A DNA stretch of 64,000 nucleotides from Streptomyces xanthii. GTDB lineage: Bacteria > Actinomycetota > Actinomycetes > Streptomycetales > Streptomycetaceae. This document shows, piece by piece, positions 26,426 through 54,020 of this stretch. Both the position numbers and the translations under genes were made by a program. The notes below the pieces were generated by a model, which saw only the letters and a list, made by a program, of their open reading frames with translations, searched no databases and had not been told where the DNA came from. The stretch lies in NCBI RefSeq assembly GCF_014621695.1, contig NZ_CP061281.1:2728001-2792000 (forward strand). The letters are read 5' to 3'. Every line of letters begins with the position of its first letter. The first letter of the stretch is position 1.

Positions 26426-28570
26426 TCAGATACCCACTCCCGTGAAGCGCACCGACTCGTCCAGCACAGCGGCCGCAGATTCGAGGTCGGCGAGTCTGGT
26501 CGACAGCGTGGCCTCAGCCAGTCGCGGCGGGAGAGCATCGCCGAATTTGAGACCCTTCACGGCCTTCTCGTCGATGTCGGGCAGAGCCAGACGATCCGTA
26601 ACGGCCTTTCTCGCCAGCCTCCAATCCGCCGGAGTGAGATCGTCGCGTAGACGCACCCAGTGATCGTTGAGACGCTGCCCTGGCACCGCGACGCCATCGA
26701 AGGTGGCTGCCAGAGCGGCATTCGCCCGATGACCGGCCCACGTCCACCATCGCAGTTGGCCTGACCTGTCGCGTTCTCGCACGATCAGAGTGCCTCCTGG
26801 GTGCACTCGCTTCATGAAGTACTCCCGGGCTTCGCCCAGGCACCCCTGTGCTCTCCGGGTCAGATTCACCGGCGGGTCGGCGCCGAGGAGCACTTCACGC
26901 ACCGCGCGGACAAGCCGAAAGGACGCACCCTGGCCGAATCCGGCACCGCTCCACTTGGCTTTGCCACCTTCTTCGACCGGTTCGACGAAGCACCGCTTCC
27001 GGTTCCAGTCGATGTAGGTGACCTGCCAGTTCCGGCCGGCGAGCAGAAGTCGGCGGGGACCGGTGATGTGCTCGGTCAGCAGACTGGGGTCTGTACGGCC
27101 GATCTCGGTCCGGCCCTGCAGGACGGTGAACTGCGGCGGTGCGGTGAAGACCGCGGTGAGATTCATAAAGTGCCGGTGGCCGAATCGACGTTCGGCTTCC
27201 GGACCGATGAAGAGCAACCCTTCGTCCTGATCGAGGTATCCCTCTGTCACCAGGTGTTTGACGATCGGCTGCGCGGACGAGCCGAACGGCCCGAGGCCGT
27301 TCCACCCTTCATGCCACAGATTGCTTCCGACGCCACCCTCCTGAAGGCAGAGGGCGAGCACCTGTTGAGCCACGATGTGCCGCGGCTCGGGAGGTGCGAC
27401 CACCGGCTCGACCCAGCCTCTCGACCACTGGAGCAGGAGCCCTACCGCACTCAACAGACCCGCACGGTCGAGAGCGAGGAAGAGACAGTTCCGTGAGGTC
27501 CCGGGGCGGCGTCCGGTACGGCCGATCCGCTGGAGGAAGGACGCGACCGATGCCGGTGCATCGATCTGGACAACTCGGTCCAAGTCGCCGACGTCGATGC
27601 CGAGTTCGAGCGTGCTGGTCGACACGATCACACAGTCTCGCGCTTCAGCGAAAGCCGCCTCCGCTCGCCTGCGCTCGTCGAGCGAGAGCGACGCGTGAGA
27701 GAGGAACGTGTTGACCCCACGGGCCCGTAGCGCTGATCCCAGCTCTTCGACCAGTCGCCGTGACTCGCAGAAGACCAGGCGTTTCTCACCGCGGTGCAAG
27801 GTGCTGATGACAGTTGCCGCGTTTTCGAGCGATCCCACGTAGTCGAGCTGAATGTCCCCAGGCGGTACCGAGGCAGAGAGCGCACCACTCACTGCATCCC
27901 GCGTCGCGTCCAAGTGAGGGGCGACGACTTGTGCAGGACGTGAGCCCGCTCCCGATCCCTGGAGCCACGTGAGAAGTTCGTCAGGGTTACCGACCGTCGC
28001 CGAAAGTCCGACACGTTGAAGTGGACGACCCACCACCCGTTGCAGTCGCTCCAGTACAGCCAGCAGATGCCAACCCCGGTCGTCGCCTGCGAAGGCATGC
28101 ACCTCGTCGACGACCACCGCCCTGAGCCCTGAGAAGAACGACGCATGATCGACGTTGACGCTCACCAGCATCGCTTCCAGCGACTCGGGGGTGGTGAGCA
28201 GGACGTCCGGCCGGTCCGCCAGGATGCGCTTGCGGGTACCGGAGGCGGTGTCACCGTGCCAGAGTGCGGCGCTGCGTCCGAGCCAGGAGGCGTACGTCCC
28301 GACTCTGGGCAGCAGGTTGTTCAGCAGCGCCTTGAGGGGGCAGAGGTACAGCACCGAGGTGCCGGACCACCGAGCACGATGCATGCGCGACAGGAGTGGA
28401 AAGCACGCTGCTTCCGTTTTCCCGCCGGCGGTCGGGGCGAGGAGGAGGGCGTCCTTGCCTCCGGACAGCGGCACGACCGCCGCTTCCTGGAGGGGCCGCA
28501 GTCCCTTCCAGCCAAGGGTGTTCACGATGTGGTGGACGAGCGCGGGTTCCAGCTCGTCGACCGCGCTCAT
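26426..28570 (-). CDS. brxHI: BREX type 2 Lhr-like DEAD/DEAH helicase
   Basis: A 714-aa superfamily 2 helicase. Walker A APTAGGKTEA (residues 45-54), Walker B/DEVH box VVVDEVHAF (152-160), motif III LSATVGN, and motif VI QRIGRTGRRPG are intact, and LTTPESLEAML is the Lhr-type motif Ib. BrxHI is one of the six standard components of BREX type 2 (Pgl) systems. Last gene of the pglY-pglZ-brxD-brxHI operon; its ATG overlaps the brxD stop by 4 bp. Its role in phage exclusion is not established. It ends immediately beside the left-end repeats of the island. Confidence 0.88.
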   Translation of the reverse strand: MSAVDELEPALVHHIVNTLGWKGLRPLQEAAVVPLSGGKDALLLAPTAGGKTEAACFPLLSRMHRARWSGTSVLYLCPLKALLNNLLPRVGTYASWLGRSAALWHGDTASGTRKRILADRPDVLLTTPESLEAMLVSVNVDHASFFSGLRAVVVDEVHAFAGDDRGWHLLAVLERLQRVVGRPLQRVGLSATVGNPDELLTWLQGSGAGSRPAQVVAPHLDATRDAVSGALSASVPPGDIQLDYVGSLENAATVISTLHRGEKRLVFCESRRLVEELGSALRARGVNTFLSHASLSLDERRRAEAAFAEARDCVIVSTSTLELGIDVGDLDRVVQIDAPASVASFLQRIGRTGRRPGTSRNCLFLALDRAGLLSAVGLLLQWSRGWVEPVVAPPEPRHIVAQQVLALCLQEGGVGSNLWHEGWNGLGPFGSSAQPIVKHLVTEGYLDQDEGLLFIGPEAERRFGHRHFMNLTAVFTAPPQFTVLQGRTEIGRTDPSLLTEHITGPRRLLLAGRNWQVTYIDWNRKRCFVEPVEEGGKAKWSGAGFGQGASFRLVRAVREVLLGADPPVNLTRRAQGCLGEAREYFMKRVHPGGTLIVRERDRSGQLRWWTWAGHRANAALAATFDGVAVPGQRLNDHWVRLRDDLTPADWRLARKAVTDRLALPDIDEKAVKGLKFGDALPPRLAEATLSTRLADLESAAAVLDESVRFTGVGI

Positions 28571-39085: not shown

Positions 39086-39532
39086 TCACGACACGACGGG
39101 CTCGGTCTGGGCCCACACGGTCTTGCCGGGACCGGTGCGGTCGTCGACGCCCCAGCGGTGCGCGACAGCCTCGACGAGGGCGAGCCCCCGTCCACCGTCG
39201 GCTTCCGGGTCGGCCATGCCGACGCTCGACGGGTCAGGCCGACGCGGGTGAGTGTCGGACACCTCGATCCGCACGACGGTGGTCTTGTGCTCGTACAGCA
39301 GGCGCAGTTCGAAGTTCCGCCCCGGTACGCGTCCGTGGCGGGCGGCGTTGGCCGCGAGCTCGGCGACAATCAGGGCGACCGTGTCGTGGAGCGGGGCGCC
39401 GGGCGAGATGCCCCAGCCGCCGAGCTGCCTCGAAGCGAACCGGCGCGCGAGGCTGGCTCCGAGCCGAGTCGCGGGAAACGTATGGGTGAAGACACTGACG
39501 GTTACGGTCGGTTGGGCCTGCTGCGATGTCAT
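39086..39532 (-). CDS. HATPase_c anti-sigma-like ATP-binding protein
   Basis: A 148-aa GHKL ATPase of the RsbW-like Streptomyces type. N box LIVAELAANAARHG, G1 IEVSDTHPRRPDPS, G2 DGGRGLALVEAVAHRWG. The ATG follows GGAAGG. It is divergent from the XRE-DUF5753 gene (143 bp apart) and convergent with the QatC-like gene. A cluster of such an ATPase with XRE-DUF5753 and DUF397 genes is common in Streptomyces and linked to development (whiJ-like loci); here it sits inside the BREX island and may regulate it (inference). Confidence 0.82.
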   Translation of the reverse strand: MTSQQAQPTVTVSVFTHTFPATRLGASLARRFASRQLGGWGISPGAPLHDTVALIVAELAANAARHGRVPGRNFELRLLYEHKTTVVRIEVSDTHPRRPDPSSVGMADPEADGGRGLALVEAVAHRWGVDDRTGPGKTVWAQTEPVVS

Positions 39533-39674
39533 GGCGCCAGCCTTCCGGCGCCGCACCGCAGGTGACAGGAACGCCACCGGTACAGATCCATCTGTATGGG
39601 TTCACGCACTGGACTGGGCGGGTAACTCCCCGTAACTCTTGATGAGTTGATCGACGCGCGGGAGGCGGGCTGCG

Positions 39675-40526
39675 ATGACGGCGGACCACGACGGTGACAC
39701 GGCGGCGGGCGGCGAACCCGAACTGTCCGACAGCCTGAGGACGTTCGGGGCAGTCCTGAAGGCCCTCCGGGAGGCGGACGGCCTCACCCAGGAGGAGTTC
39801 GCACTGCGTGTTCGCTACTCGGCGGCGTACGTCGCGAAGATCGAACAGGGCAAGCGGTTCCCACCGGAGAACCTGCCGGACCGCGCGGCGGAGGTCCTGG
39901 GGTCGGTTGCAGGGAAAGTGCTCGCGGCAGCGGCGAAGAGCCTACGGAGGAAGGCCGGTCTGGCGTCCTGGTTCCTGCAGTGGGCGGGGATCGAGGAGGA
40001 AGCGATCACGCTGTACGCGTATGAGTGCCGAGGGGTTCCGGGGTTGTTGCAGCCGGAGGGGTATATCCGGGCGGTATTCGAGCGCCAGCTTCCGCCGCTC
40101 ACAGAGGAGCAGATCGGACGCCAGGTGGCAGCTCGGCTCGAACGGCAGCGGGTGCTGTCCGAGCGCCCTAACACCGCCTTCAGCTTCATCATCGAACAGT
40201 GCATTTTGGAACGGCACGTGGGCGGATCCGACGTGACGAAGGTCGCCGTCGACCACCTATTGGACCTCGGCCGCCGCACCAACGTCGAAATCCAGATCAT
40301 GCCACTCAGGCAGGAGGACCACGCCGGCACCGACGGCCAGATGTACCTGGCCGAGAGCGCAGGCAACCAATGGTTCGGCTACGTCGAGGGCCATCGTTCG
40401 AGCGCTCTGATCACCGCTTCAAGCGAAGTCAGCATCCTCCTTCAGCGCTATGGCAAGCTGCGTTCCCAGGCCCTGGATTGCCGGGCTACGGTGAGCTTGC
40501 TGGAACAGATGCGAGGAGCGCTATGA
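39675..40526 (+). CDS. XRE-family helix-turn-helix protein with DUF5753
   Basis: A 283-aa regulator. Helix-turn-helix at about residues 24-80 (FGAVLKALREADGLTQEEFALRVRYSAAYVAKIEQG). DUF5753 domain at about 105-280 (YECRGVPGLLQPEGYIRAV, then IEQCILERHVGG). This is the WhiJ-like family, normally paired with a small DUF397 protein that modulates DNA binding; the partner follows with a 4-bp overlap. GGGAGGCGGG lies upstream of the ATG. Confidence 0.9.
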   Translation: MTADHDGDTAAGGEPELSDSLRTFGAVLKALREADGLTQEEFALRVRYSAAYVAKIEQGKRFPPENLPDRAAEVLGSVAGKVLAAAAKSLRRKAGLASWFLQWAGIEEEAITLYAYECRGVPGLLQPEGYIRAVFERQLPPLTEEQIGRQVAARLERQRVLSERPNTAFSFIIEQCILERHVGGSDVTKVAVDHLLDLGRRTNVEIQIMPLRQEDHAGTDGQMYLAESAGNQWFGYVEGHRSSALITASSEVSILLQRYGKLRSQALDCRATVSLLEQMRGAL

Positions 40527-40769: not shown

Positions 40770-43700
40770 CTACTCCCCGCCCAACTCGACCTGCTCGACA
40801 GGCTTCTTCTTCGGCACGGCAGCCTTCCGCCCGCGCGGCTTCTTCACCGGCCGCCACGCCGCCAACTGCGCCTCGCCGACACCGTGCCTGCGCAGCAACG
40901 CTTCGTAGTCCGCCTCAAGCACCTCGGCCGGCACCTCGTCGTCCCACTCCGCGTCCGGCTCGCCATGCCACTGCTTCACCCACGGCATGACCTCGCGAAG
41001 CCCCGCGAGCAGCGGAACGATCCGCTCGGTGCTCCAGCCGTCCCGCTTGGTCCGCGCGTCGATCAACTGCGACAGCACCTGCGCCTGATCCTTGTGATCC
41101 CACCCGGCCCAGCCAAGCATCAGCGTTGGGTCCCCGTCCGGACTCGCACCGGGGTACGAGATGAACCGCTCCTTAGGCACGTCGAGCTTGCCGCGGTTCG
41201 CCCAGTACGAGAACTGGAGGAAGTCGGACGTCTTGTACTTGTTCGGCGGATCGATGTCCCTGCGCACGCCGTCCTTGTCCTCCTCCCGCTGCTCCGCCCA
41301 TACCTGCTCCCACTGTGCACGGATGCGCAACCCTGAGTCCTTATACCGCAGGGCTGCGAGATACGGCACATGCTCATCGGCAATGACTTCGGAGAGCACC
41401 TGCGCCAGTGGGAGATCCGGCATGCCGAGATGGTCAGAGGCGTACAGAGCCGCAACCGAGACGAAGTCCGAATCCGAACTCACCCGGTCAGCAAGGTAAT
41501 TGACCGTCATCGACCGCGGCTGCTTCATCCCGTCCCGCAGCTCGTACCAGAGCCCGCTGCTCTCACACCGGTCGAGCAACCAGGTCCGCAGCGCGGCTCG
41601 CTCCTTCTTCTCCCACGACTCGGCAGCCCACCGCCGCTTGCACTCAGGCCGCTCGATCAGACCAATGTCCTTGGTGCGCGAGGCGATGACGTCAAGCCGC
41701 GCCTGCACCACAGCCCTGTATTCGTCCGTCCAATGCACGGGGATGTCCACAATCGGGGTCGCGCCGTGACGGTCGAACCAGACGGTTGTCGTCTCTCGCT
41801 CGGCTACACGCCGAGCGAGCGCAATCTCAAAGGCCCGCTCGCCCAGGCCGACTTCGGGAACCTCGCAGGAGGCGGGTAGAGTCACCCGCTTCACTTCAGC
41901 CGGAGTCAGCAATCCGTAGAGGCCGTAGACGGTCCAATCGAGCTCTTCCTGAAGTGCGATCATCCGCCCCTTGGCGGCTTCGCTGTCCCGACGCGCCTGA
42001 TCAAGGTTGGCGCGACGTGGAGTCTCGCGCCCAGCGACAGCATCCGGCTCGCTGTCCGCCAGCTCCCTCGCCGCAAGGTCGAGCGAACGTCCCAGTTCAA
42101 GCGGGAGAGTTCCCGGAAGAGGAAACCCTTGCAACTTGGTCCCGGTGAACTCGTAGAACCGCTCCCATTCGTCATGCATGAACCCGCCAGTCCCTGACTG
42201 GCTCCCCTTGTCATGGCTGACCTGCTTCAACCAGAAGCACGCCGTCGACGAATTGAGCACCCCCAACAACTCCAGGTGCGCATCCTCATCCGCACCCTGT
42301 GGCAGCTTGATGACTGGCGCAGACCTGTTGAACACCTTCCCTCCCCGGTCCAGCACAAAGTGATTGTGCGTCGACACAAACGCAAAGGCGATCGATAGCG
42401 GCGTGGCGTACGCAGACGCGGTGTACTGCATGTAGTCCCACCATTCGAGACCCGCATCTGCCATGTCACCTTGGAATGTTCTACGCGCTGCGAGCGTCGC
42501 CCGCCAAGGCCACAATTCTTCACCAAGGCGCCCCTCATTCACCGCCTTGGCATCTGGCCTCCAAATAGCTACGTCTGGCTCGGCACGCCAGTCCCGAACC
42601 ACATCTCCAAGAAGCAGTGGCCGCAGTGCTCGCTTGTCCGCTCGGGGCTTGTACGTCTTCCGCAACGGCCGCATGTACGCCTCATCGGCACCCGCACGAA
42701 TAGCGCGACCGATCGGCTTCGAAATCTTCTCCTCCAGCGGCATCGTGCCAACGGCCAGCCGGTCCAGCAGCGGACCGGCCCCTCCCCCACTCACCGACCA
42801 CGGGTGACTCACGAAGCTCGCCGCAACCGCGTTCTCAACGGACACCCAGTCCGACTCACTCCCCGGTCGCCCCACCTGCTCCACAATCGCCCGCCACACG
42901 GCGCCTTCCGCCGCGATCGGTGGCTGCGCAGGCTCCCCTCGAACCCCCAACACCGCCCGAACCGTCCGCTCCGGGCTAGGAATCCGGTTCCGCCCCACCA
43001 GAATCACCGTAGGCGTGCCATGCCCCGGAATGTACGCCCCCGACGTATCGATCACATGCGACAATTCAGCCCGATTCCGGAAGAAGACCTCGATGAGCTT
43101 CTTGCCGAACTCACGCTTCATGAAGGAATTCGCCGTGATCTGCCCGACAAACCCACCCCCACCGAGCCGCCCGCCCGGCCCCCTGACCGCCAGCTCAAAC
43201 AGCCGCGCCGCGAACGGCACGGACAGCGCATAGGTCCCCGCGCACACGTCCTTGTACGCCGCCCGGTAGTTCTCGTTCTCCTGCTTGTCCTTCACCGTGA
43301 TGTACGGCGGATTCCCCACCACTACGTGATATGAGCCCCGCCCAAGCAGATCCGCCCGCTTCGCGTACTCCCACACGTCCTCGGTCGAGTACGCGTACGT
43401 CTCCCCGTCCTCACTCCCCACGGGCGCGTCCGAGAACAGCGTGTCCAACTCGATCTCGGTCTGAATGCCGGCCGCCCCCCGCCCGTGTAGCAGCGAGTCA
43501 CCGACCGCCACATTGATCGGGAAGGGTCGCATCCGGTCGAGCCTGCTCACCCCCGCGGCCTTCATCGCGGCGACGAGCAGTCGGAAGCGCGCGATGCTCG
43601 CCGCGAACGGGTTCTTGTCGCAACCGTGGACGGATTCCAGCGAGCGCCGGATCAACGTCCAGTCGTCCGTACCCGGCTCCGCGATACGCCACTTGTCAAG

Positions 43701-44531
43701 GAGCCGGTGGAAGATGCCGAGCAGGAAGTGCCCCGACCCGCACGCCGGGTCGATGGTCCGCAGCCCGCGCAGCGGCTCACCCGTCGGGTCCAGAGGATCT
43801 TCCCGTGCCGCGTTGAGACCGAACTCCTCGATCGCCGGTTCCAGGGTCAGATCGAGGATGAACTCCTCGACGAACTCAGGGGTTTGGAGTAGTGCATACG
43901 TCTTACGGGCATGCTCGCTCAGGTCCTGGTACAGGTCGCCGAGGAAGCGAGTGTTCCACTCCGGGTCAAAGAAGTTGTAACGGATCTCGCCCGCCGCACC
44001 CCACCTGCGCCAGAAGGCGAGCAGCTTCGTCGCCGCGTCGTAGCTGGGGGTAATGCTCCACAACGGATTGTGGTTCTCGTCGAAGAGTCCGGCGGCGGCG
44101 GCGTTCGTCTTCGCAAGGTGACGGAAGGACTCGATCAGCCAGTCACGGTCGTTGAGATGCGGGTTCTCACGGAAGAAGTTGTCGTGGCGAGCCTCAGCCT
44201 CGGCGAGGCGCTCACCGGGGCCGGCGATGTAGGGCTCCTCGATCAGGCCGTTGTCCTCGCAGAAGCGGACGAAGACGCAGGCGAGGACCCAGGCGGCCGC
44301 GGCTTGCGTGACCCGCTCGTCACGCCAGGCAGCGTAGGGGGCCGCGATCCGCTTCGCCTCCTTGGCCTGCCGGTACTCCTCCTCAAGAGGTGCGCGGAAA
44401 TCCTCGACCGTCTCGCTACGGACACGCAGGTCGTCCTCCAGGTCGAGGACCAGCCGCTTGAGGTCCTTGACCAGGGCCTCCTTGTCCAGCCTCGCCGTAC
44501 CCGCCGTCTCCACCGTCACGTCCGCTTCCAT
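40770..44531 (-). CDS. pglX: BREX type 2 adenine-specific DNA methyltransferase PglX
   Basis: A 1253-aa class I N6-adenine methyltransferase. The SAM motif DPACGSGHFLLGIF is near residue 262 and the catalytic NPPY (VVGNPPYITVKD) near 407. Long C-terminal specificity and coiled regions end in a Lys/Arg-rich tail. In Pgl/BREX-2 the enzyme marks DNA so that phage infection is restricted. In S. coelicolor pglX switches on and off through a G-tract; here the reading frame is complete, with a G6 run (43475-43480 on the complement) near codon 350. Start taken as the ATG with AGGA upstream; a GTG five codons earlier is also possible. Confidence 0.92.
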   Translation of the reverse strand: MEADVTVETAGTARLDKEALVKDLKRLVLDLEDDLRVRSETVEDFRAPLEEEYRQAKEAKRIAAPYAAWRDERVTQAAAAWVLACVFVRFCEDNGLIEEPYIAGPGERLAEAEARHDNFFRENPHLNDRDWLIESFRHLAKTNAAAAGLFDENHNPLWSITPSYDAATKLLAFWRRWGAAGEIRYNFFDPEWNTRFLGDLYQDLSEHARKTYALLQTPEFVEEFILDLTLEPAIEEFGLNAAREDPLDPTGEPLRGLRTIDPACGSGHFLLGIFHRLLDKWRIAEPGTDDWTLIRRSLESVHGCDKNPFAASIARFRLLVAAMKAAGVSRLDRMRPFPINVAVGDSLLHGRGAAGIQTEIELDTLFSDAPVGSEDGETYAYSTEDVWEYAKRADLLGRGSYHVVVGNPPYITVKDKQENENYRAAYKDVCAGTYALSVPFAARLFELAVRGPGGRLGGGGFVGQITANSFMKREFGKKLIEVFFRNRAELSHVIDTSGAYIPGHGTPTVILVGRNRIPSPERTVRAVLGVRGEPAQPPIAAEGAVWRAIVEQVGRPGSESDWVSVENAVAASFVSHPWSVSGGGAGPLLDRLAVGTMPLEEKISKPIGRAIRAGADEAYMRPLRKTYKPRADKRALRPLLLGDVVRDWRAEPDVAIWRPDAKAVNEGRLGEELWPWRATLAARRTFQGDMADAGLEWWDYMQYTASAYATPLSIAFAFVSTHNHFVLDRGGKVFNRSAPVIKLPQGADEDAHLELLGVLNSSTACFWLKQVSHDKGSQSGTGGFMHDEWERFYEFTGTKLQGFPLPGTLPLELGRSLDLAARELADSEPDAVAGRETPRRANLDQARRDSEAAKGRMIALQEELDWTVYGLYGLLTPAEVKRVTLPASCEVPEVGLGERAFEIALARRVAERETTTVWFDRHGATPIVDIPVHWTDEYRAVVQARLDVIASRTKDIGLIERPECKRRWAAESWEKKERAALRTWLLDRCESSGLWYELRDGMKQPRSMTVNYLADRVSSDSDFVSVAALYASDHLGMPDLPLAQVLSEVIADEHVPYLAALRYKDSGLRIRAQWEQVWAEQREEDKDGVRRDIDPPNKYKTSDFLQFSYWANRGKLDVPKERFISYPGASPDGDPTLMLGWAGWDHKDQAQVLSQLIDARTKRDGWSTERIVPLLAGLREVMPWVKQWHGEPDAEWDDEVPAEVLEADYEALLRRHGVGEAQLAAWRPVKKPRGRKAAVPKKKPVEQVELGGE

Positions 44532-44679
44532 CTCGTTCCTACTCACCGCAGCGCATCCTCTCCCGCCGCGCATCGGGCGGCCAGGCCCCTCAATCCTGCC
44601 AGCCTCGCTATCGAAGCTGCGGTTCCCGTGTGCGGAAAGCCCTCCCGCGCCCTCTACCCCCACCACTAAAGTGATCGTC

Positions 44680-45186
44680 GTGACGGCCACGCCCCCAACC
44701 TCGCCCCCGCCCGACTTCGCCAGAGCGAGCGTGCACCATTTCCGGTCGGCCGTCCTCGCGACCGGCGCGCGGTGGCAGATATCGGCGGATCACCTGGCCG
44801 GCCTTGCCGCAGAATGTGCCATCAAGGCCATCCTGATCAGTTTCCTGGGCTCCGAGCTCAAGCCGAACGGCATGCCGCACCACCCTGAGATGAAGTTCCC
44901 ACACCCCACCCGGAGGCAGCGAAACTGGGACGGCCAGCACGGCCACCTTCCCGCGCTCTGGGAGCAGCTCACCGCCGTGGCCCACCGCCGCAACGACACC
45001 GCCGCAGGTCTCCTGTTCTCCCAGCTCCTCTGGGAGAACCCGTTCGCGGACTGGGACGTGGGCGACCGGTACTGCGACGGCACCATGCTCACCAAGGAGC
45101 ACGTCGACCGGCACCTCAAGGCAGCCTACGACCTCATCGCCGCCCACGAGCAGGCCCGCATCCTAGGAACCGGCACCCTCGTATGA
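44680..45186 (+). CDS. HEPN-like protein, first gene of a three-gene ATPase cassette
   Basis: A 168-aa helical protein. SADHLAGLAAECAIKAILISF is the kind of motif seen in HEPN domains of abortive-infection and toxin proteins, and GQHGHLPALWEQL plus KEHVDRHLKAAYDLIAAHEQAR complete a helix-rich fold. A possible RxxxxxH (RNWDGQH) is present, but I cannot tell whether it is the HEPN ribonuclease motif. GTG start; another GTG at 44671 is possible. Divergent from pglX (148 bp). Its stop overlaps the next gene's ATG by 4 bp, so it is likely expressed in fixed ratio with the two ATPases. Confidence 0.65.
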   Translation: MTATPPTSPPPDFARASVHHFRSAVLATGARWQISADHLAGLAAECAIKAILISFLGSELKPNGMPHHPEMKFPHPTRRQRNWDGQHGHLPALWEQLTAVAHRRNDTAAGLLFSQLLWENPFADWDVGDRYCDGTMLTKEHVDRHLKAAYDLIAAHEQARILGTGTLV

Positions 45187-46562
45187 CCACTCCTCCCCCG
45201 CCGTCCGTACGGTTCGACGCGGCCTGGAAGCAAGCGCTCGCCCATGCCGGTCAGGCAGCCCAGCGGTTCGGCATGAACGTCGTCGTCACCCGTGACCTTC
45301 TGGGGCGTGCATCGCTCCTCGTCGACGATCGGGCGAACCCGCTGGCGGCGGACGCCCCGGACGTAGTGTCCGCGAGGGACGGGTTTGCAGCCGCGACCCA
45401 CCCCTTCACCGGCCTCGAACCCCTCGTGCTCGGCAGTCTCCTTTTCGCCCCCGATCTCTTCTTCGCCAGTGGAGACCGTACGGAGGTCAGCGCTTCCCAC
45501 GGCAATGTCGGCAGCGTGCACGCCCTGGAACGCACCGTAATAGGGGCCGACTGGACAAGTGCGCCCCTCCCTGCCCGTACGCCGTTCGACGGCGACTGGG
45601 ACCGCCGGGACCGCCGCGTCGCCATGTACGGGTTCAAGGGGGGTGTGGGCCGCTCGACGGCCACCGCGATGCTCGCCCGGTATCTGGCCGACCGAGGACG
45701 GTGCGTACTGGTGGTCGACCTCGACCTGGAGTCGCCCGGGGTGTCAAATCTCCTGGAGAGTCCGAGCGGCATCCCTCGTCACGGCATCGTGGACCACCTG
45801 GTCGAAGCGGCCGTCGGACATGCCGACGGGCTCGAACTGGTCGCTCGCGGCACTGCTCTGCCCGTCCGGGGCGAAAGCAACGGCGAGGTGTGGTTCGCCC
45901 CTGCCGGAGGCACACCCCGTGCAGGCGAACGCAGCGACTACCTCGCCAAACTGAACCGCATCTACAGCGACCTTGCCCCACTCACTCCCGGCGACGGTCC
46001 GCGTCCCTTCGCCACCCGGCTCGAACAGGCCATCAGCGCCTGCGAGGACCAGGTGGCAGAGCTCTCCCGGCGCCCCGACGTCGTCCTGCTCGACTGCCGG
46101 GCCGGCATGCACGACATCGCCGCCGTCACCCTGACCCACCTGAGCGGCCTGGCGCTGTTGTTCACCGTGGACAACCCTTCCACCTGGGAGGGGTACCGCA
46201 TGCTGTTCGAGCAGTGGCGGCAACGGCAGGACCACGTCGGTGATCTGGTGGAACGCCTCAGAGTGGTCGCTGCCATGTTCAACTCCGCCGGAGACGTCAA
46301 CCGTCTGCTCGCCCTGCAGGAGCGGGCGTACAACCTCTTCGCCGACACCCTCTACGAGCCGGACAGCACGTATATCTCGGCACCGGACGCGGAAGACGCA
46401 CCGCACACCCCCATCCCGATCCTGTTCGGCAACGACCTGATCGGGCTCGACCCGCTGCGCAGCAGCGCCTGGCCCGAGCTGCCGATGGTCGAGGCCGTCT
46501 ACCAGACCTTCACGACTACGGTGGAGCGACTGCTGCCCCCGCCGCACCCGGAGCCCTCATGA
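45183..46562 (+). CDS. KGGVGR-motif (ParA/MinD-like) ATPase
   Basis: A 459-aa protein. Residues 1-145 form an unassigned N-terminal domain (VRFDAAWKQALAHAGQAAQRFGMNVVVTRD). Then comes a deviant Walker A, YGFKGGVGRSTATAML (residues 149-164), with R in place of the usual K after KGGVG. Switch-like VVDLDLESPG (177-186) and VVLLDCRAGMHD (300-311) follow. This is the ATPase type named for its KGGVGR motif. Such ATPases dimerise on ATP and often sense or recruit partners. Coupled by ATGA to both the HEPN-like and the downstream P-loop gene; the three act together (inference). Confidence 0.8.
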   Translation: MTTPPPPSVRFDAAWKQALAHAGQAAQRFGMNVVVTRDLLGRASLLVDDRANPLAADAPDVVSARDGFAAATHPFTGLEPLVLGSLLFAPDLFFASGDRTEVSASHGNVGSVHALERTVIGADWTSAPLPARTPFDGDWDRRDRRVAMYGFKGGVGRSTATAMLARYLADRGRCVLVVDLDLESPGVSNLLESPSGIPRHGIVDHLVEAAVGHADGLELVARGTALPVRGESNGEVWFAPAGGTPRAGERSDYLAKLNRIYSDLAPLTPGDGPRPFATRLEQAISACEDQVAELSRRPDVVLLDCRAGMHDIAAVTLTHLSGLALLFTVDNPSTWEGYRMLFEQWRQRQDHVGDLVERLRVVAAMFNSAGDVNRLLALQERAYNLFADTLYEPDSTYISAPDAEDAPHTPIPILFGNDLIGLDPLRSSAWPELPMVEAVYQTFTTTVERLLPPPHPEPS

Positions 46563-48031
46563 CCCCCCTGACCGCCGACGAGTACCGCACCCTGATTGTC
46601 CGGGCCCTGGAAGACGCGGTCGACGCGAACACCACGGAACCGGACCTGCGGCGGTTGTTCACCCCGTCGAGCCATCGGCTCGCTCTCGCTCCCGACGTCA
46701 CCGTGGTGAAGGGCGCACGCGGTACCGGCAAGACGTACTGGGCCAAGGCGCTGACCGATCCCCGGCTGCGGGAGATCGCCGCGGCTTCGTACCTGATGCC
46801 CAGATTGCGCCGGGTCAAGATCGCTACGGGATTCGCTGCGGACCGCAAGGCCGACGCCGCCTACCCGACCAAGCGAGTTATCGCCCGGTTGATGCGCGAT
46901 GACGAGTTCGATGCGGTCGACTTCTGGTTCATGGTCGTTCTGATGGCGCTCAAGGTGCCCGAGATCGCAGCCATCAACGACTGGCCCGGCAGGATGAGCT
47001 GGGTACGGGAGAATCCCGAGGCGCTCGACGACGCTCTTCAGGAAGCGGACAGCGCGGCTCACAGCGACGGCGTGACGCAGGTCCTGCTCTTCGACGCCCT
47101 GGACCATCTGCACAAGGACAGGATGCAGGCGGACAAGCTCGTGTCGGGTCTGCTCGAGGTCGCGCTCGAACTGCGCCTCACTACATCTGCCCTGCGCGCG
47201 AAGGTCTTCATCCGCCCGGACATGTACGACAGCGCACCCAAGAAGTTCGCGGACGCGTCGAAACTCACCGCGAACACCGCCGAGCTCACCTGGCTCCGGG
47301 AGAACCTCTACGGGCTTTTCTTCCACCAGTTGGGGAACTACGACGGCCCCGGAGCCGCGGAGTTCCGGGCTGCCACCGGCGGCTGGCGCGATGAAGGCGA
47401 CGGCCGGTTCATCGCGCCGACTGATGTCATCGCCGACCAGACACGGCAGGAAGCCGTGTTCGTCGACATCGCCGGACCATACATGGGCACCGACCGACGA
47501 AAGGGCCTCACCTACACCTGGGTGCCCAATCATCTCCAGGACGGTAATGAGGAGGTCAGCCCCCGTACGTGGTTGTACAGCCTGCGGGAAGCCGCTGTCG
47601 TCTCCGCCGAGCGATACGCGGGTTACGAGTACGCGCTCCATTACGACGCCATCAGAGCAAGCCTGCACGGGGCGGCCCGTATCCGCGTGGAGGAACTCAC
47701 AGAGGACATCGCCTGGGCGGTTGCCGCAGTCGAGAAACTCGAGGGGGGCGAAGTACCGATGGAACCCTCGGTCGTCATCGCCCACTGGAATCAGGGCGGG
47801 CTCAGCGCCGCGCTGCAGGAACTGGCCCAGGAAAGCGGCCAGGACCCTCAGGAGGACGACGGCGGCAGCGGCCCACGCAAACCGGATGATCCCTTCGCTG
47901 TCCTCGAAGAACTCATCGACATCGGCGTCCTGACCCGGCGACTCACCACCGGGGCCATCGACCTGCCCGATGTGTACCGGCTGTACTTCAACATCGGGCG
48001 CAGGGGCGGGGTTTCCCGCAAGAAGTCCTGA
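46559..48031 (+). CDS. P-loop ATPase of the HEPN/KGGVGR cassette
   Basis: A 490-aa protein. Walker A is VVKGARGTGKTYWAKAL (residues 49-65) and the Walker B candidate VLLFDALDHL (175-184). N-terminal ~45 residues and the C-terminal half (from FHQLGNYDGPGAAEFRAATGGW) are not assigned to a known domain. The last residues VYRLYFNIGRRGG.. are basic. Of the STAND/AAA-like type often found as the second ATPase in multi-gene defence cassettes, but I do not recognise a named family. ATGA overlap with the preceding gene; convergent with pglW across 32 bp. Confidence 0.75.
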   Translation: MTPLTADEYRTLIVRALEDAVDANTTEPDLRRLFTPSSHRLALAPDVTVVKGARGTGKTYWAKALTDPRLREIAAASYLMPRLRRVKIATGFAADRKADAAYPTKRVIARLMRDDEFDAVDFWFMVVLMALKVPEIAAINDWPGRMSWVRENPEALDDALQEADSAAHSDGVTQVLLFDALDHLHKDRMQADKLVSGLLEVALELRLTTSALRAKVFIRPDMYDSAPKKFADASKLTANTAELTWLRENLYGLFFHQLGNYDGPGAAEFRAATGGWRDEGDGRFIAPTDVIADQTRQEAVFVDIAGPYMGTDRRKGLTYTWVPNHLQDGNEEVSPRTWLYSLREAAVVSAERYAGYEYALHYDAIRASLHGAARIRVEELTEDIAWAVAAVEKLEGGEVPMEPSVVIAHWNQGGLSAALQELAQESGQDPQEDDGGSGPRKPDDPFAVLEELIDIGVLTRRLTTGAIDLPDVYRLYFNIGRRGGVSRKKS

Positions 48032-48063: not shown

Positions 48064-51000
48064 TCAGTCCCCAAGCGCCTTCACGAATCCCGCGTCCAGG
48101 TGCTCCCGCTCCCCGTCGCCGCCGATCACCTCGACCGTCCGCCCGTCGAGGCGTGGCTGCTGCGACCGCGTCTCGACCGGGCACAGCAGCCACAGGCCGT
48201 GGGGGACGCTCCCAGGTCGGCGAGCCGCATTCTGGAGACGGGTCAGGAAGCCGTGGCCGCCCTCGTCCCAGTAGCGTGCGACCAGGCCGGCGTCGTAGAG
48301 GAACAGGACCGTCCGGGGTGCGGTGGCCCGCTCGAGGAGGGCGTCCTCCATGCGTTGCCAGACCACGCGGGCGAAGGAGGCGAGGCCGGGCTTGATGCGG
48401 CCTGGGGCGGAACCGCTGTCGGCACGCAGGAACTTCTGCCAGTCCTGTCCCTTTTCGTCCGCCAGCTCCCGCAGCGTGCGCAGGAACATCCCCGCGACAT
48501 CGACCGCGACGACGCCTTCGGACTTGAATCCCGCCGCCACCCGCTCCGCCGTCCCCACCAGCACGTCGCGTTTCACCGTCAGGGCGAGGAAGCCACCGCG
48601 GGCGGCACGCTCGGTCAGCCGGGCACGCAACGCCCCGTGTGGATCCTCGCGGTCCGCGTGGGAGACCGGACGCGGAGGAAGGTAGCTGGTGTGGACGCCG
48701 GTCGAGGTGCGGGCGGCGGGCGGTGCGGATCTGCGCGGGAAGAACGTCAGGGTCTTGAGGTCGTAACGCAGGTCGAAGCGGGCCGCCTCCAATGCCTCCT
48801 CGAGTTCCACGTGAGTCGGCTCCCGGCCCCCCGCGAGGAGATCCAGGTCGGGGAAGCGTGCCCGCAGCCGAGCGACCAGGCCAGAAACCACAATGCCCCG
48901 GTCGTGCCGGACCCCGGCTCCCGCCTGGGAGATACGCAGGGCCCGCTCCAGGCTCAGATCCTGCGGGTACAACTCAAGGCGCGGCGTCACCGCGGTCCGG
49001 GCTGCGACCGCGGCAGCCAGCGCCACGAGGCGTGTGTCCGCGAGCGGTGCGAAGCCGTCGGGGACCGGTACGGCACGCAGGTCGCGCACGACCTCAGCGC
49101 GGCTGGGCAGCGGGTCACGCCGCGCAAGTTGATGTGCGCAAGATCCAAGCAACGCACTGTAGTCGGCCAGTTCACGAGGGCTGGGGTCTTCAGTCCCGGG
49201 CAAGGACTCAGCCGCAATGAGGACCGCTTCGCCACGCCGGTGCACTGCGAGGCGGGGCTCATGCGGTACACCGCCCTCGGTCCCCGCACTGTCCACCTCT
49301 CCCACCGCATCCGAGGTCTCGGCCTCGACCGCGGCCCGGACGACGGCCAGAGACCTGGCCAGGATCCGCTCGCTGGTGTCACTGCCCGCTCCGTGGCGGG
49401 CACGCAGTTCAGCCGCGGCCTCCACAGCGGTCATGACCCGCCCAGCGGCGGTGACGATGTCGACCAGCTCAGCGCGTACCGGTGAGAGCCAGGCCGCCTC
49501 CGCCCACTGTTTGATCTCGATCCGGTGGTGCCGGGAGACCGGCGGTTGCTTGATACCCAGGTGCTCGGCGATGCGTGCCTGAACCGGCCAGGCACCCAGC
49601 GGGGAGAGCCCGCCCTCTTCCGGTGGAAGCCCGAGAGTGAGCCGTACCACGGCCGCACGGTGTGAGCCCTTGCGGCCGGGCTCGGGGGTGAGCAAGGCCG
49701 CCATCTCGTCTATCGACAGAATGCGTTCCGGGGCCGAGCCGTCCACCGTCGCGACGTCCACCACCGGGCGGTCGACGGGTGGTGTCTGCGGGGAACGACC
49801 GTCGGAGGCCGGAAGGAGTGCTGCTGCCCATTGCTTGCGCCGCCGGTTCAACTCCTTGCGCACCAGCGCACCGGCTCCGCGCGCCCGGGAGATGACGTAC
49901 GGCTGAAGGTTCAGCAGATCGCCGACCCGGTAGGCGTGCAGGTCGTTCGCGACGGACACCGCTCGGGGGGTCAGCCCTGCGGCCTCCAGTAGTGTCGTGA
50001 CGTCGGCGGCTTCCGCAGCCCTGTCCCGGTCGCTTTCCGGGTCCTCGGAGGCTGCACCGACGAGGTTCTGCGTGATGGTGGGGCCGGTCGAGTCCGCGGT
50101 ACGGAACACCTGCCTCCACTCGTCACGCATCTGGGTGAGGGTCTCGAAGCGGTGCTCGACGTCGCGATGCAGGGCTCGCCGGAAGAAGCGTGCGAGCCCG
50201 TCGCTCAATGCGGGTTCGAAGAGCTCGACCGCGATACGAAGGACTGCCGACTCATTGGTGAGCGGATCGTTCCGTCCGTCACCCCACACCGGCCTCTCAC
50301 CGCTGGCCATCTCGTGCAGTGTGACGGCCGCCGCATACCGCTCGGCGTGATCGTCGTAGTGGGCACGACGCATGGACCCGAGGAACGGGTCGAGATAATT
50401 GCGGGTGCCAGCCTTGATGTCCCGGTCGGAAGCATCGGTGAGGGAGAAATCGAAGAGCTTGAGCTGCCAGGTGCGGTCCTTGCGCCGCTGGACACCGAAA
50501 TTGTCCGGCTTGATGTCACGGTGGCGCACTCCATGACCGGCGAGCTGGTCAAGAGCGTGGAACAGGTCGTCCGAGAAACGTTCCAACTCGTGAAAGGTGA
50601 GCCTGCCCTGGCCCCTGAGCCGCTCACCGAGCGACTGCTCGCCCGCATACTCCAGTTCCAGAACCGTGCGCCCGCCGATCTCTCGCAGCCCCTCCCCTCG
50701 CAGCTGGACGATCGCTCCACCACCGACCGTCCCGAGCACTCGCTCCTCGGCCCGCAGCCTGCCGGCCCGCTCCTCGTCGAGAGCGACTTTGAAGACATGC
50801 TCGTCGATGTGGACGTGGCCGTCCTCGTCCTCCGTCGCACGCTCCACAAGGAGGGCACGGGCCGTGGCTCCGGTGCCGAGAACCCGCCGCACCGACCATT
50901 CGGTGTCAAGCGACTGGCCGGGCAGCGCTTCCAGCGGATCGACATCGGTCGAGGCCGGGGAATCGGGCAGAACGCTGGCGCGCTCGGCCTCGTCGAGGAG

Positions 51001-52515
51001 ATCGAGGAACTCCTCCACCGAACCCAGGCGGTCATTGACATCGGTCCGGGTCGCCTGGAAGACGAGATCGTCCAGAGCGTCGGGCAGCCCATCCGCCACC
51101 GCGAAGAGCCGCAGGCCCGAGTCCGTGCGCAAACGATCACTCAGCGCACTGCGCTGCGCGGCCGGCGGCAGCCCGGTAAGGATCAGATGCGCGACTGCTC
51201 CCAGACCGAAGACGTCCAGATCACCTGGGTCGGCGAAGGGCTGATCCGTCTCCGGGGCCAGGTACACGCGAGCCGCGTCCTCGATGAGCGCCGCGTCGAG
51301 CGCGGACCCACCGATGGAACGGAAGAAGGTGGCATTGGAATCGAAATCCCTGGCCGCGGTCTGCCAGTCGGTGATCCGCAGTTCGGGATGGGCCCCACCC
51401 TCTTTGAACGAGACATATACCGAACGGGCCGCCAGAGCGCGGTGATACAGCGACCGGTTGTGTGCATAGCGGACGGCCTCCGCAAGCTGCCGAACCAGGT
51501 CGAGGCGTGTCTCAGGAGTCAGCTTCCCACCGTAGACATCCAGATACTGGTCGAGTCGCAGGTCCGTGTGGCGATGGCGAAAGAGGATCGCCGGACCGCC
51601 TTGATGCTCACGGAATTCGACTGCGTCGACGATCCCACGGTGGTTAATACCCTGGAGCACTTGATATTCGCGACGCGCGGCTCGCTCAGTGGCCTTGCGG
51701 GCTGCTTCGGTAGCCATCTGGCTGACCAGATAGATACGGACCCTGCCCTCCTCCTGGACCATCCCGTCATCGCGAGACGCGAGACGGTCCTCCCAGGAGG
51801 GCCCGGCATCCAACGGATGGGGCTCCATCTTCCACGCATCGCCGAATCGCAGATGAGCGGCGGACTGACGAATGCCAATAGCCTTCAGAAGCTGAGGGAG
51901 GGTATGGCGGGAGAATTCCGGAGTAATGCGTCGCTCAGGGCGGTCCGGCGGCAGCCCCAGGAAATCCTGCCAGATGCGCTTGAGTCCACTCGCGCCGTCA
52001 TCACGGCCGTAGACCTTGATCTGCTGCACCTCGTCCAGATGACTGTCCAGATCCGGGGCGGAGAGAAAAACGGCAGGCTCGATACGTGGCACGACGCGAT
52101 CACTGATGCCTAGCTTGCGGGCTGCCCACTGAAGCTGGCTCTTCAGCTCTTTGGACTTCAGGTCATTGAAGTGCAACGGATTGGTGATCGTCCGCATGCG
52201 GTCCTGGCCACGGAAATTCCAGGTAGAACCGCTGTTGCGGAGTTCACCGGGATGACTCTTGATCTCAACAAGAAATAGCCCGGACGGAACCGCGATCAGT
52301 AGATCGCATTCGTTGACGCGTCCGGATTGCGCAGTGAAAGAGAAGGTTGCCCAGGCCCGATAAGGCTCGGCGTGCGGCATGAGCTGCCGCACATGATCCA
52401 GCGCCTCCTGCTCCCAGGGGTATGGAGAGACCCTTTCCTGCGACCACTGTCGGGGCGGCCTCACGGGGCCAGGCTTCGGCACCCCGGACGCCGGGGCTCC
52501 TCCCACTGCGGTCAC
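48064..52515 (-). CDS. pglW: BREX type 2 serine/threonine kinase PglW with NERD domain
   Basis: A 1483-aa protein. An N-terminal NERD-type nuclease-related domain (CDLLIAVPSGLFLVEIKSHPGEL) is followed by a degenerate kinase-like domain (YHRALAARSVYV near 358) and a full kinase domain (HRDIKPDNFGV near 668, FDFSLTD). The C-terminal ~600 residues are family-specific. PglW is the protein kinase of Pgl and autophosphorylates in S. coelicolor. I chose the GTG with GGGAGGACGGGACA upstream, which leads into PYPWEQEALDHVRQLMP as in PglW; the frame is open a further 89 codons to a TTG at 52782, so a longer form cannot be excluded. Confidence 0.88.
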   Translation of the reverse strand: MTAVGGAPASGVPKPGPVRPPRQWSQERVSPYPWEQEALDHVRQLMPHAEPYRAWATFSFTAQSGRVNECDLLIAVPSGLFLVEIKSHPGELRNSGSTWNFRGQDRMRTITNPLHFNDLKSKELKSQLQWAARKLGISDRVVPRIEPAVFLSAPDLDSHLDEVQQIKVYGRDDGASGLKRIWQDFLGLPPDRPERRITPEFSRHTLPQLLKAIGIRQSAAHLRFGDAWKMEPHPLDAGPSWEDRLASRDDGMVQEEGRVRIYLVSQMATEAARKATERAARREYQVLQGINHRGIVDAVEFREHQGGPAILFRHRHTDLRLDQYLDVYGGKLTPETRLDLVRQLAEAVRYAHNRSLYHRALAARSVYVSFKEGGAHPELRITDWQTAARDFDSNATFFRSIGGSALDAALIEDAARVYLAPETDQPFADPGDLDVFGLGAVAHLILTGLPPAAQRSALSDRLRTDSGLRLFAVADGLPDALDDLVFQATRTDVNDRLGSVEEFLDLLDEAERASVLPDSPASTDVDPLEALPGQSLDTEWSVRRVLGTGATARALLVERATEDEDGHVHIDEHVFKVALDEERAGRLRAEERVLGTVGGGAIVQLRGEGLREIGGRTVLELEYAGEQSLGERLRGQGRLTFHELERFSDDLFHALDQLAGHGVRHRDIKPDNFGVQRRKDRTWQLKLFDFSLTDASDRDIKAGTRNYLDPFLGSMRRAHYDDHAERYAAAVTLHEMASGERPVWGDGRNDPLTNESAVLRIAVELFEPALSDGLARFFRRALHRDVEHRFETLTQMRDEWRQVFRTADSTGPTITQNLVGAASEDPESDRDRAAEAADVTTLLEAAGLTPRAVSVANDLHAYRVGDLLNLQPYVISRARGAGALVRKELNRRRKQWAAALLPASDGRSPQTPPVDRPVVDVATVDGSAPERILSIDEMAALLTPEPGRKGSHRAAVVRLTLGLPPEEGGLSPLGAWPVQARIAEHLGIKQPPVSRHHRIEIKQWAEAAWLSPVRAELVDIVTAAGRVMTAVEAAAELRARHGAGSDTSERILARSLAVVRAAVEAETSDAVGEVDSAGTEGGVPHEPRLAVHRRGEAVLIAAESLPGTEDPSPRELADYSALLGSCAHQLARRDPLPSRAEVVRDLRAVPVPDGFAPLADTRLVALAAAVAARTAVTPRLELYPQDLSLERALRISQAGAGVRHDRGIVVSGLVARLRARFPDLDLLAGGREPTHVELEEALEAARFDLRYDLKTLTFFPRRSAPPAARTSTGVHTSYLPPRPVSHADREDPHGALRARLTERAARGGFLALTVKRDVLVGTAERVAAGFKSEGVVAVDVAGMFLRTLRELADEKGQDWQKFLRADSGSAPGRIKPGLASFARVVWQRMEDALLERATAPRTVLFLYDAGLVARYWDEGGHGFLTRLQNAARRPGSVPHGLWLLCPVETRSQQPRLDGRTVEVIGGDGEREHLDAGFVKALGD

Positions 52516-52826
52516 TGTCCCGTCCTCCCGCGTCGCCCATGCCAGCAGGGCCGCATCATGCCTGGTCGAGCCTACCGCGCCGGCCACATGAAGGATCCGG
52601 CGTTCGCTGATCCGGAACGAGAGCGCCTCGATCCAGCGCCGTTCACCGGAAAGGTGCCTGAACCATGCAGGGGGCCGCAGCGTCGCAGGCGCCGCCGTTG
52701 CAGGTGTCCGCGGCACAGCGTCCGCCGCCAGCCACTGTGAACGCGTACGCACTGCGAATCCGCTCCAAGGAAGCGACGCCAAAGCAACTCAAATGTGCGA
52801 TGACAACGCGTCAGATTCTTCAGTGT

Positions 52827-52931: not shown

Positions 52932-54020
52932 CTACACGTTGAAGCGGAACTCCACCACGTCGCCGTCCTGCATCACATACTCCTTGCCCTCCATGCGGGC
53001 CTTGCCGGCCGCGCGGGCGTCGGCCACCGAGCCCGTTTCGAGGAGGTCGGCGAAGGAGATGACCTCGGCCTTGATGAAGCCCTTCTGGAAGTCCGTGTGG
53101 ATGACTCCGGCCGCCTCGGGGGCCGTGGCGCCCTTCTTGATGGTCCAGGCGCGGGATTCCTTGGGGCCGGCCGTCAGGTAGGTCTGGAGGCCGAGGGTGT
53201 CGAAGCCGACGCGGGCGAGGGTGGCGAGGCCGGGCTCCTCGGCGCCGACGGACTGGAGGAGCTCCATGGCGTCCTCCTCGTCGAGCTCGGCGAGGTCCGC
53301 CTCCAGCTTGGCGTTGAGGAAGATCGCCTCGGCCGGGGCGACCAGCGCGCGCTGCTCGTCCTTGAACGCGTCGTCGGTCAGCTCGTCCTCGTCGACGTTG
53401 AAGACGTAGAGGAAGGGCTTGGTGGTGAGGAGGTGGAGGTCGTGCAGGAGCTCCTCGTTGCCCGAGCCCTGGACGATGCCCGCGGAGAAGAGGGTGTCGC
53501 CCTTCTCCAGGATCTCCTTGGCCGCCTCGACGGCCGCGACCTTCGGGACGACGTCCTTCTTGATGCGCGACTCCTTCTGGAGGCGCGGGAGGACCTTCTC
53601 GATCGTCTGGAGGTCCGCGAGGATCAGCTCCGTGTTGATCGTCTCGATGTCGTCCTTGGGCGAGACCTTGCCGTCGACGTGCACGACGTTCTCGTCCTTG
53701 AAGGCGCGGATGACCTGGCAGATGGCGTCCGACTCGCGGATGTTCGCCAGGAACTTGTTGCCCAGGCCCTCGCCCTCGGAGGCGCCGCGCACGATGCCGG
53801 CGATGTCGACGAAGTCGACCGTGGCCGGGAGGATCTTCTGCGAGCCGAAGATCTCCGCGAGCTGGGTCAGGCGGGCGTCCGGGACGCCGACCACGCCGAC
53901 GTTCGGCTCGATCGTGGCGAACGGGTAGTTGGCCGCGAGCACGTCGTTCTTGGTCAGGGCGTTGAACAGGGTCGACTTGCCGACATTCGGCAGACCGACG
54001 ATTCCGATCGTGAGCGACAC
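52932..54020 (-). CDS. ychF: Ribosome-associated ATPase YchF
   Basis: A 362-aa Obg-family P-loop protein that binds ribosomes and prefers ATP over GTP. G1 GLPNVGKST is at residues 9-17; FVDIAGIVRGASEGEGLGNKFL is the G3 region; FNVDED replaces the NKxD guanine motif, as in YchF. The TGS domain ends with VIHTDFQKGFIKAEVISF and VMQDGDVVEFRFNV. The final codons (attR-like core at 52936-52949) match the remnant at 26315-26328, so the last few codons and the TAG stop appear to have been provided by the integrated island without changing the protein end. Confidence 0.95.
   Translation of the reverse strand: MSLTIGIVGLPNVGKSTLFNALTKNDVLAANYPFATIEPNVGVVGVPDARLTQLAEIFGSQKILPATVDFVDIAGIVRGASEGEGLGNKFLANIRESDAICQVIRAFKDENVVHVDGKVSPKDDIETINTELILADLQTIEKVLPRLQKESRIKKDVVPKVAAVEAAKEILEKGDTLFSAGIVQGSGNEELLHDLHLLTTKPFLYVFNVDEDELTDDAFKDEQRALVAPAEAIFLNAKLEADLAELDEEDAMELLQSVGAEEPGLATLARVGFDTLGLQTYLTAGPKESRAWTIKKGATAPEAAGVIHTDFQKGFIKAEVISFADLLETGSVADARAAGKARMEGKEYVMQDGDVVEFRFNV
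52936..52949. other. attR-like core within the ychF 3' end
   Basis: acgttgaagcggaa, identical to 26315-26328. It encodes FRFNV, the C-terminus of YchF, on the minus strand. Together the two copies delimit the island. Confidence 0.75.

Follow-up and report, generated by a model that had tools for sequence, protein, structure and literature searches.

A PDC-M28 gene triad encoding a HEPN-fold protein and two ATPases at a BREX-2 locus of Streptomyces xanthii

The window considered here is a stretch of 64,000 nucleotides from Streptomyces xanthii (RefSeq assembly GCF_014621695.1, contig NZ_CP061281.1, positions 2,728,001 to 2,792,000 of the forward strand). Between the BREX-2 genes pglX and pglW, at window positions 44680 to 48031, lie three coupled genes, here termed A, B, and C. 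Judged by its profile matches, this triad is a member of PDC-M28, a candidate system catalogued in PADLOC (PDC, phage defence candidate) whose anti-phage role is putative. We see about an even chance that the triad represents a full PDC-M28 copy, able to move on its own, that was inserted at the BREX-2 locus, where it would act as an ATP-gated abortive-infection module with A as the effector and B and C as the switch. The computational findings comprise the identity and coupling of the genes, their co-occurrence, a HEPN-like fold, conserved residues, natural fusions of B and C, and presence both inside and outside of BREX.

All three proteins match their PADLOC models over nearly the full length: A matches PDC-M28A (PDLC04558; E 3e-27, residues 8-159 of a 164-residue query, model positions 4-136 of 138), B matches PDC-M28B (PDLC04559; E 6.3e-107, model positions 3-432 of 438), and C matches PDC-M28C (PDLC04561; E 2.3e-145, model positions 1-479 of 480). 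The adjacency and order of the genes are consistent with PDC-M28, going by the gene arrangement and not by PADLOC's own system rule. Genes, order, and lengths are the same, and there is no family-level difference. A preliminary description of this DNA, made from the sequence alone, did not recognize the triad as a named system, a statement that these matches overturn. Literature searches retrieved no paper carrying the name PDC-M28, no matching paper for a HEPN and ParA-like anti-phage operon, and, for KGGVGR, a single unrelated paper. Two papers (PMC12988326, PMC13356809), in the portions consulted, trace PDC systems to “guilt-by-embedding”, an approach that they attribute to a 2024 bioRxiv preprint by Payne et al. 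The accessible text of the DefensePredictor study (PMC13092281) reports HEPN domains in four validated systems, and the term “ParA” is absent from its main text. A 2026 survey of BREX (PMC12839542) argues, in the part consulted, that HEPN effectors, typically stand-alone, serve as back-ups in BREX loci; the terms KGGVGR, MinD, Soj, and SIMIBI are absent from its main text (supplements not searched). The present analysis adds the HEPN-T/AbiV-type residues of A, the placing of C among STAND/ORC ATPases, a two-gene form in which B and C are fused, solo copies linked to recombinases, and recurrent switches between BREX-2 and solo settings.

The genes lie on the plus strand, opposite to pglX and pglW. 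Gene A (44680..45186) encodes a 168-residue HEPN-fold protein of the PDC-M28A family; its start is the GTG at 44680 or, following some relatives (MIVVTA...), the GTG three codons upstream at 44671. Gene B (45183..46562) encodes a 459-residue KGGVGR-variant ParA/MinD-like ATPase of the PDC-M28B family, and gene C (46559..48031) a 490-residue STAND/ORC-Cdc6-type AAA+ ATPase of the PDC-M28C family. The frames of B and C are open as given, and both the A/B and the B/C junctions are ATGA overlaps, in keeping with the four-base-pair coupling first described. The placement between pglX and pglW likewise holds, both flanking proteins scoring above their NCBIfam BREX cut-offs.

Conservation of the triad was followed in 297 genomes of the family (presumably Streptomycetaceae) and 396 genomes of the phylum; alignments took in 52 of 62 sequences (A1), 87 of 120 listed from 208 found (A2), and 70 of 120 listed from 746 found plus eight plasmid loci (A3). 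PDC-M28C matches at E <= 0.001 occur in 41 of the 297 family genomes and reach at least 300 bits in 21, of which 16 (the window included) have A and B beside C and five have C without them. A PDC-M28A match occurs in 16 of the 297 genomes, exactly those with adjacent B and C, so the A-B-C arrangement is not due to chance; HEPN genes of the fused form described below fall under the threshold of this search. For 11 of the 16 triads, PglX or PglW is at most about 10 kb away, and the other five are in genomes with no BREX-2 PglX above cut-off (one on a 4.3-kb contig, one near a contig end). The triad is thus at the BREX-2 locus in 11 of the 62 genomes with BREX-2 PglX, compared with five occurrences in the 235 others (Fisher p 2.8e-5, the genomes being related). 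The remaining 51 of the 62 genomes have no triad in the locus; it is absent from most BREX-2 loci and hence no core component. In the phylum sample, C matches five of the 396 genomes, two at full length (the window and one genome of the same genus).

The 13 nearest contigs retrieved all come from Streptomyces and are up to 94% identical in C. Each of them has PglW beside A-B-C, separated in three by about 1.5 kb, and PglX lies on the other side in 11, the other two having no PglX match before the contig end. Across BREX-2 loci the insertion point and orientation of the triad vary. Among 20 of the 51 triad-free loci, which were fetched for comparison, pglW and pglX overlap or lie no more than 52 nucleotides apart in 15, so the triad splits a usually coupled pair. 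The remaining five have 1.6-5.2 kb of other DNA between these genes; two of the gaps hold a gene of about 1600 codons (L110 11241-16160; L115 12247-17064), and three hold smaller inserts. One BREX-embedded triad among the 16 (L074, G122:C1:6644879-6645358) has an in-frame TAG within gene A. Five C-alone relatives (L076-L080) form a single clade, with no A or B matches beside C and with uninformative neighbours, and within 12 kb of four shorter Sll1717-like ATPases (L089, L090, L092, L095) neither A nor B is matched.

A second, two-gene form joins B and C in one chain. In 11 family genomes, weak C matches fall in open frames of at least 870 codons, and all of these are B-C fusions to which both profiles match (B at 42-73 bits, C at 26-51 bits); in the three for which positions are given, the N-terminal half matches B and the C-terminal half matches C. 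A HEPN-motif gene lies just upstream of or overlaps the fusion in all 11 cases, ten of them recognized by motif scan and one (L128) by profile. A profile search recovered eight of these 11 upstream genes (6-15 bits, E up to 0.29) and gave no match for L119, L120, and L123; the upstream frame of L126 lacks its second half. With the PADLOC models, PDC-M28B and PDC-M28C both fall on the single fusion compared, which fits them only partly, and PDC-M28A matches three of three upstream genes (E 4.7e-5 to 1.2e-3). The fetched regions of 16-18 kb around the 11 fusions contain no match to the window's BREX proteins, and the literature searched yielded no description of a fused B-C form. Proteins that exist both as separate and as fused chains usually act together. 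From these natural fusions, the best evidence on this point, we infer that B and C form a complex.

Structure comparison finds the HEPN four-helix fold in A, using VIA-align, a re-ranking of Foldseek matches in which families missing from the rows may still be relatives. A Calothrix relative from the same kind of operon scores above the Pfam HEPN (PF05168) cut-off, and at E <= 10 three of 32 A relatives match PF05168 and ten match AbiV. The window's own A matches neither of these Pfam models, nor is the MAE_18760-family HEPN model among its profile matches; the HEPN-like character first proposed for A is upheld by its fold and its Calothrix relative, the profile search succeeding with the relative and failing with A itself. 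The profile of A has no significant match among the sequences of solved chains. The RxxxxxH motif suggested as the active site is rejected: 29 of the 32 A proteins in the alignment have an Rx4-6H string somewhere, but its register is not conserved, the most widely shared one (at the start of helix 2) uniting 11 of 32, or 18 of 32 if the histidine may shift by one column. By contrast, E45, K49, H89, R130, and Y131 are kept in all 31 proteins of alignment A5, which omits L126 because its HEPN-like frame lacks the H/RY half. A further alignment, with L126 among its rows, shows E45 and K49 in 46 of 46 rows, H89 in 45, and R130 and Y131 in 44 each.

According to the sections consulted of Anantharaman et al. 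2013 (PMC3710099), HEPN-T proteins of the AF0298 type and AbiV have the basic residue and typically lack the motif histidine, and an additional conserved histidine nearer the N-terminus could make up an alternative catalytic site. This pattern fits A, which shares with PF05168 and AbiV the fold, a conserved histidine upstream of a conserved arginine, and the absence of the Rx4-6H histidine; in a weak profile alignment with 1ufb (E 2.8), the same histidine and RY also coincide. A therefore appears to belong with the HEPN-T/AbiV group, with RNA cutting as a candidate activity only. A differs from these families in escaping their Pfam models and in its partners, which are two ATPases rather than an MNT nucleotidyltransferase, and it is not a solo Abi protein. 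The same paper, as far as consulted, also describes a dyad of a MAE_18760-family HEPN gene beside a ParA/Soj-like ATPase gene; it resembles the A-B pair, but its HEPN family is another one, listed with Rx4-6H present, and no C-type ATPase is mentioned.

B is the only protein of the genome above the cut-off of NF047398, the KGGVGR ATPase model (184.4 bits, cut-off 90), which substantiates the KGGVGR loop read in a ParA/MinD-like ATPase; NF047398 describes a domain family and not a system. The P-loop arginine R157 is present in 79 of 79 aligned rows. The N-terminal domain (about residues 1-130) lies outside the model, and within this domain (window 45183-45572) R37-D38, G41, and W124 are invariant in the same number of rows. 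C is a distinct NTPase, as anticipated. Over most of its length its fold is like that of STAND/ORC-Cdc6 AAA+ ATPases, including the BrxC N-terminus, archaeal PABY2304, and CED-4, and the STAND proteins PABY2304, CED-4, and NRC4 match as well as ORC does. C shares with these ATPases its Walker A and B elements (a Walker A motif, D179, and D/E182) and an invariant R219, whereas its profile has no significant match to the sequence of any solved chain. Against NF047389 (Sll1717 ATPase) it scores 56.9 bits, under the cut-off of 75, which the Calothrix C passes at 95.9; by that cut-off C is a distant relative of the Sll1717 family and not a member. A domain scan of C found no fused effector and no sensor repeats. 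Phage records gave no match to the Enterobacter C, and 18 stretches of viral contigs match a pattern of the C alignment with none a relative, absence from either set being no proof.

Outside the family sample, C matches 20 of 72,556 plasmid records, 16 of which were viewed (those omitted being two from Burkholderia glumae, NBC_00445, and Kitasatospora purpeofusca). In twelve of the viewed records, annotation or profile matches place A and B together with C; in the Gemmobacter plasmid, C seems to run across the start of the record. The other four (L084-L086, L088) have C with no A or B annotated beside it and were left out of the C tree. Three of the 12 plasmid triads (Thiodictyon, Sphaerotilus, Streptomyces NBC_01334) stand beside BREX-2 genes and nine do not. 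A gene for a tyrosine-type or site-specific recombinase precedes A by 0.2-0.5 kb in five of these nine (Paraburkholderia, two Enterobacter, Agrobacterium, Gemmobacter); the Calothrix triad has a recombinase about 5 kb away, and for the B. glumae, Skermanella, and Tistrella triads the 5-6 kb of flank seen include no annotated recombinase. Triads occur in Actinomycetota, Pseudomonadota, and Cyanobacteriota, so presence outside BREX and across phyla, left as a question by the preliminary description, is supported. A rapidly built tree of 45 C proteins, several of whose rows are long and unsure, gives five changes between BREX-embedded and solo states, and its starred branches force at least three changes (BREX-2 label) or at least four (solo label).

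Several neighbours of these copies were recorded. A TIR-domain gene directly follows the solo triad of Enterobacter asburiae (L056 8543-9346). A YchF-like GTPase gene (window 52932-54020) flanks the window's BREX-2 locus, and in another genome (G015; L063 6197-7270) a BREX-free triad stands beside a YchF-like GTPase gene and a polyphosphate-glucokinase-like gene, names that we assign presumptively from sequence; the YchF-like site looks as if it were an insertion hotspot. The window's BREX-2 locus occupies 26426-52782 on the minus strand, with genes for a helicase, BrxD, PglZ, PglY, PglX, and PglW. PglY scores 882.7 bits, under its cut-off of 1700, and the helicase (26426-28570), which occupies the place of BrxHI, has no match to the BrxHI model. 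The pglX methyltransferase gene (40770..44531, minus strand) has its likely start at about 44531, and the 148 base pairs between it and the divergent gene A (44532..44679) presumably hold the promoter region. On the other side, the frame of the pglW kinase gene (48064..52782, minus strand) is a mechanical open reading frame whose true start is probably inside. Third-position GC in the locus is 0.75-0.87, lower than in most genes outside it. The interval between pglY and pglX holds two genes (39086-39577 and 39675-40526), one for a small RsbA-like ATPase and a divergent one for a regulator-like protein (Sco1979 and hipB-type models, all under cut-off); they are possibly a control pair of the island.

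In the mechanism we propose, B and C would act as one ATP-dependent unit. C, as a STAND/ORC-type AAA+ protein, would be the nucleotide switch and probably the part that senses the trigger, and B, with its invariant P-loop arginine, would serve, with nucleotide bound, as a clamp or relay. In the resting state, B-C would keep A inactive. Infection, or failure of BREX, would change the nucleotide state of C and release A, which may then cut or sequester RNA through a predicted pocket of H89, R130, E45, K49, and Y131, so that translation would stop and the infection abort. The sensor-switch-effector layout first suggested for the triad is a sensible reading that the naturally occurring B-C fusions strengthen, although the catalytic RxxxxxH that accompanied it is unsupported. 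More tentatively, PDC-M28 may be a mechanistic class of its own, in which a HEPN effector with H and R in place of the motif is locked by a ParA-like and STAND/ORC dual-ATPase switch, sometimes in one chain, on a recombinase-linked cassette that BREX-2 would have captured repeatedly as a reserve, set off once BREX has been overcome.

Other explanations account for part of these data. The triad could be a toxin-antitoxin (addiction) module that stabilizes plasmids and islands, with A as a HEPN toxin, the ParA/Soj-like B together with C as antitoxin, and phage protection as a by-product. The small first gene, the tight operon, and the association with plasmids and recombinases agree with this, as does the proposal, in the consulted part of PMC3710099, that a HEPN and ParA/Soj-like dyad is a toxin-antitoxin pair; two large ATPases would nonetheless be unusual for a plain antitoxin, and the recurrent association with BREX-2 suggests defence, and we regard this explanation as rather unlikely. 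Alternatively, A could be a HEPN adaptor that binds nucleotides or RNA without catalysis, serving an ORC/TnsC/ParA-like B-C machine that loads on DNA and blocks replication of the invading phage or plasmid. The equally high scores of STAND proteins and ORC against C tell against such a DNA-acting machine, and the H and R kept in both three-gene and fused forms of A are better suited to catalysis; this too is unlikely. That the triad is an accessory set of BREX-2 subunits, needed for or tuning Pgl function, is suggested by its place between the two genes in close relatives. This is highly improbable, since solo copies without adjacent BREX exist in three phyla; most BREX-2 PglX genomes lack the triad in the locus, and its insertion point and orientation are not fixed.

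Taken as an abortive-infection module, PDC-M28 is no longer a nameless catalogue item but a machine open to experiment, with named effector residues, a natural fusion that predicts a complex, and BREX-free copies. If the proposed mechanism is true, a ParA-type ATPase would join the proteins that gate suicidal RNases, and large defence loci would be seen to acquire back-up modules that also travel alone.
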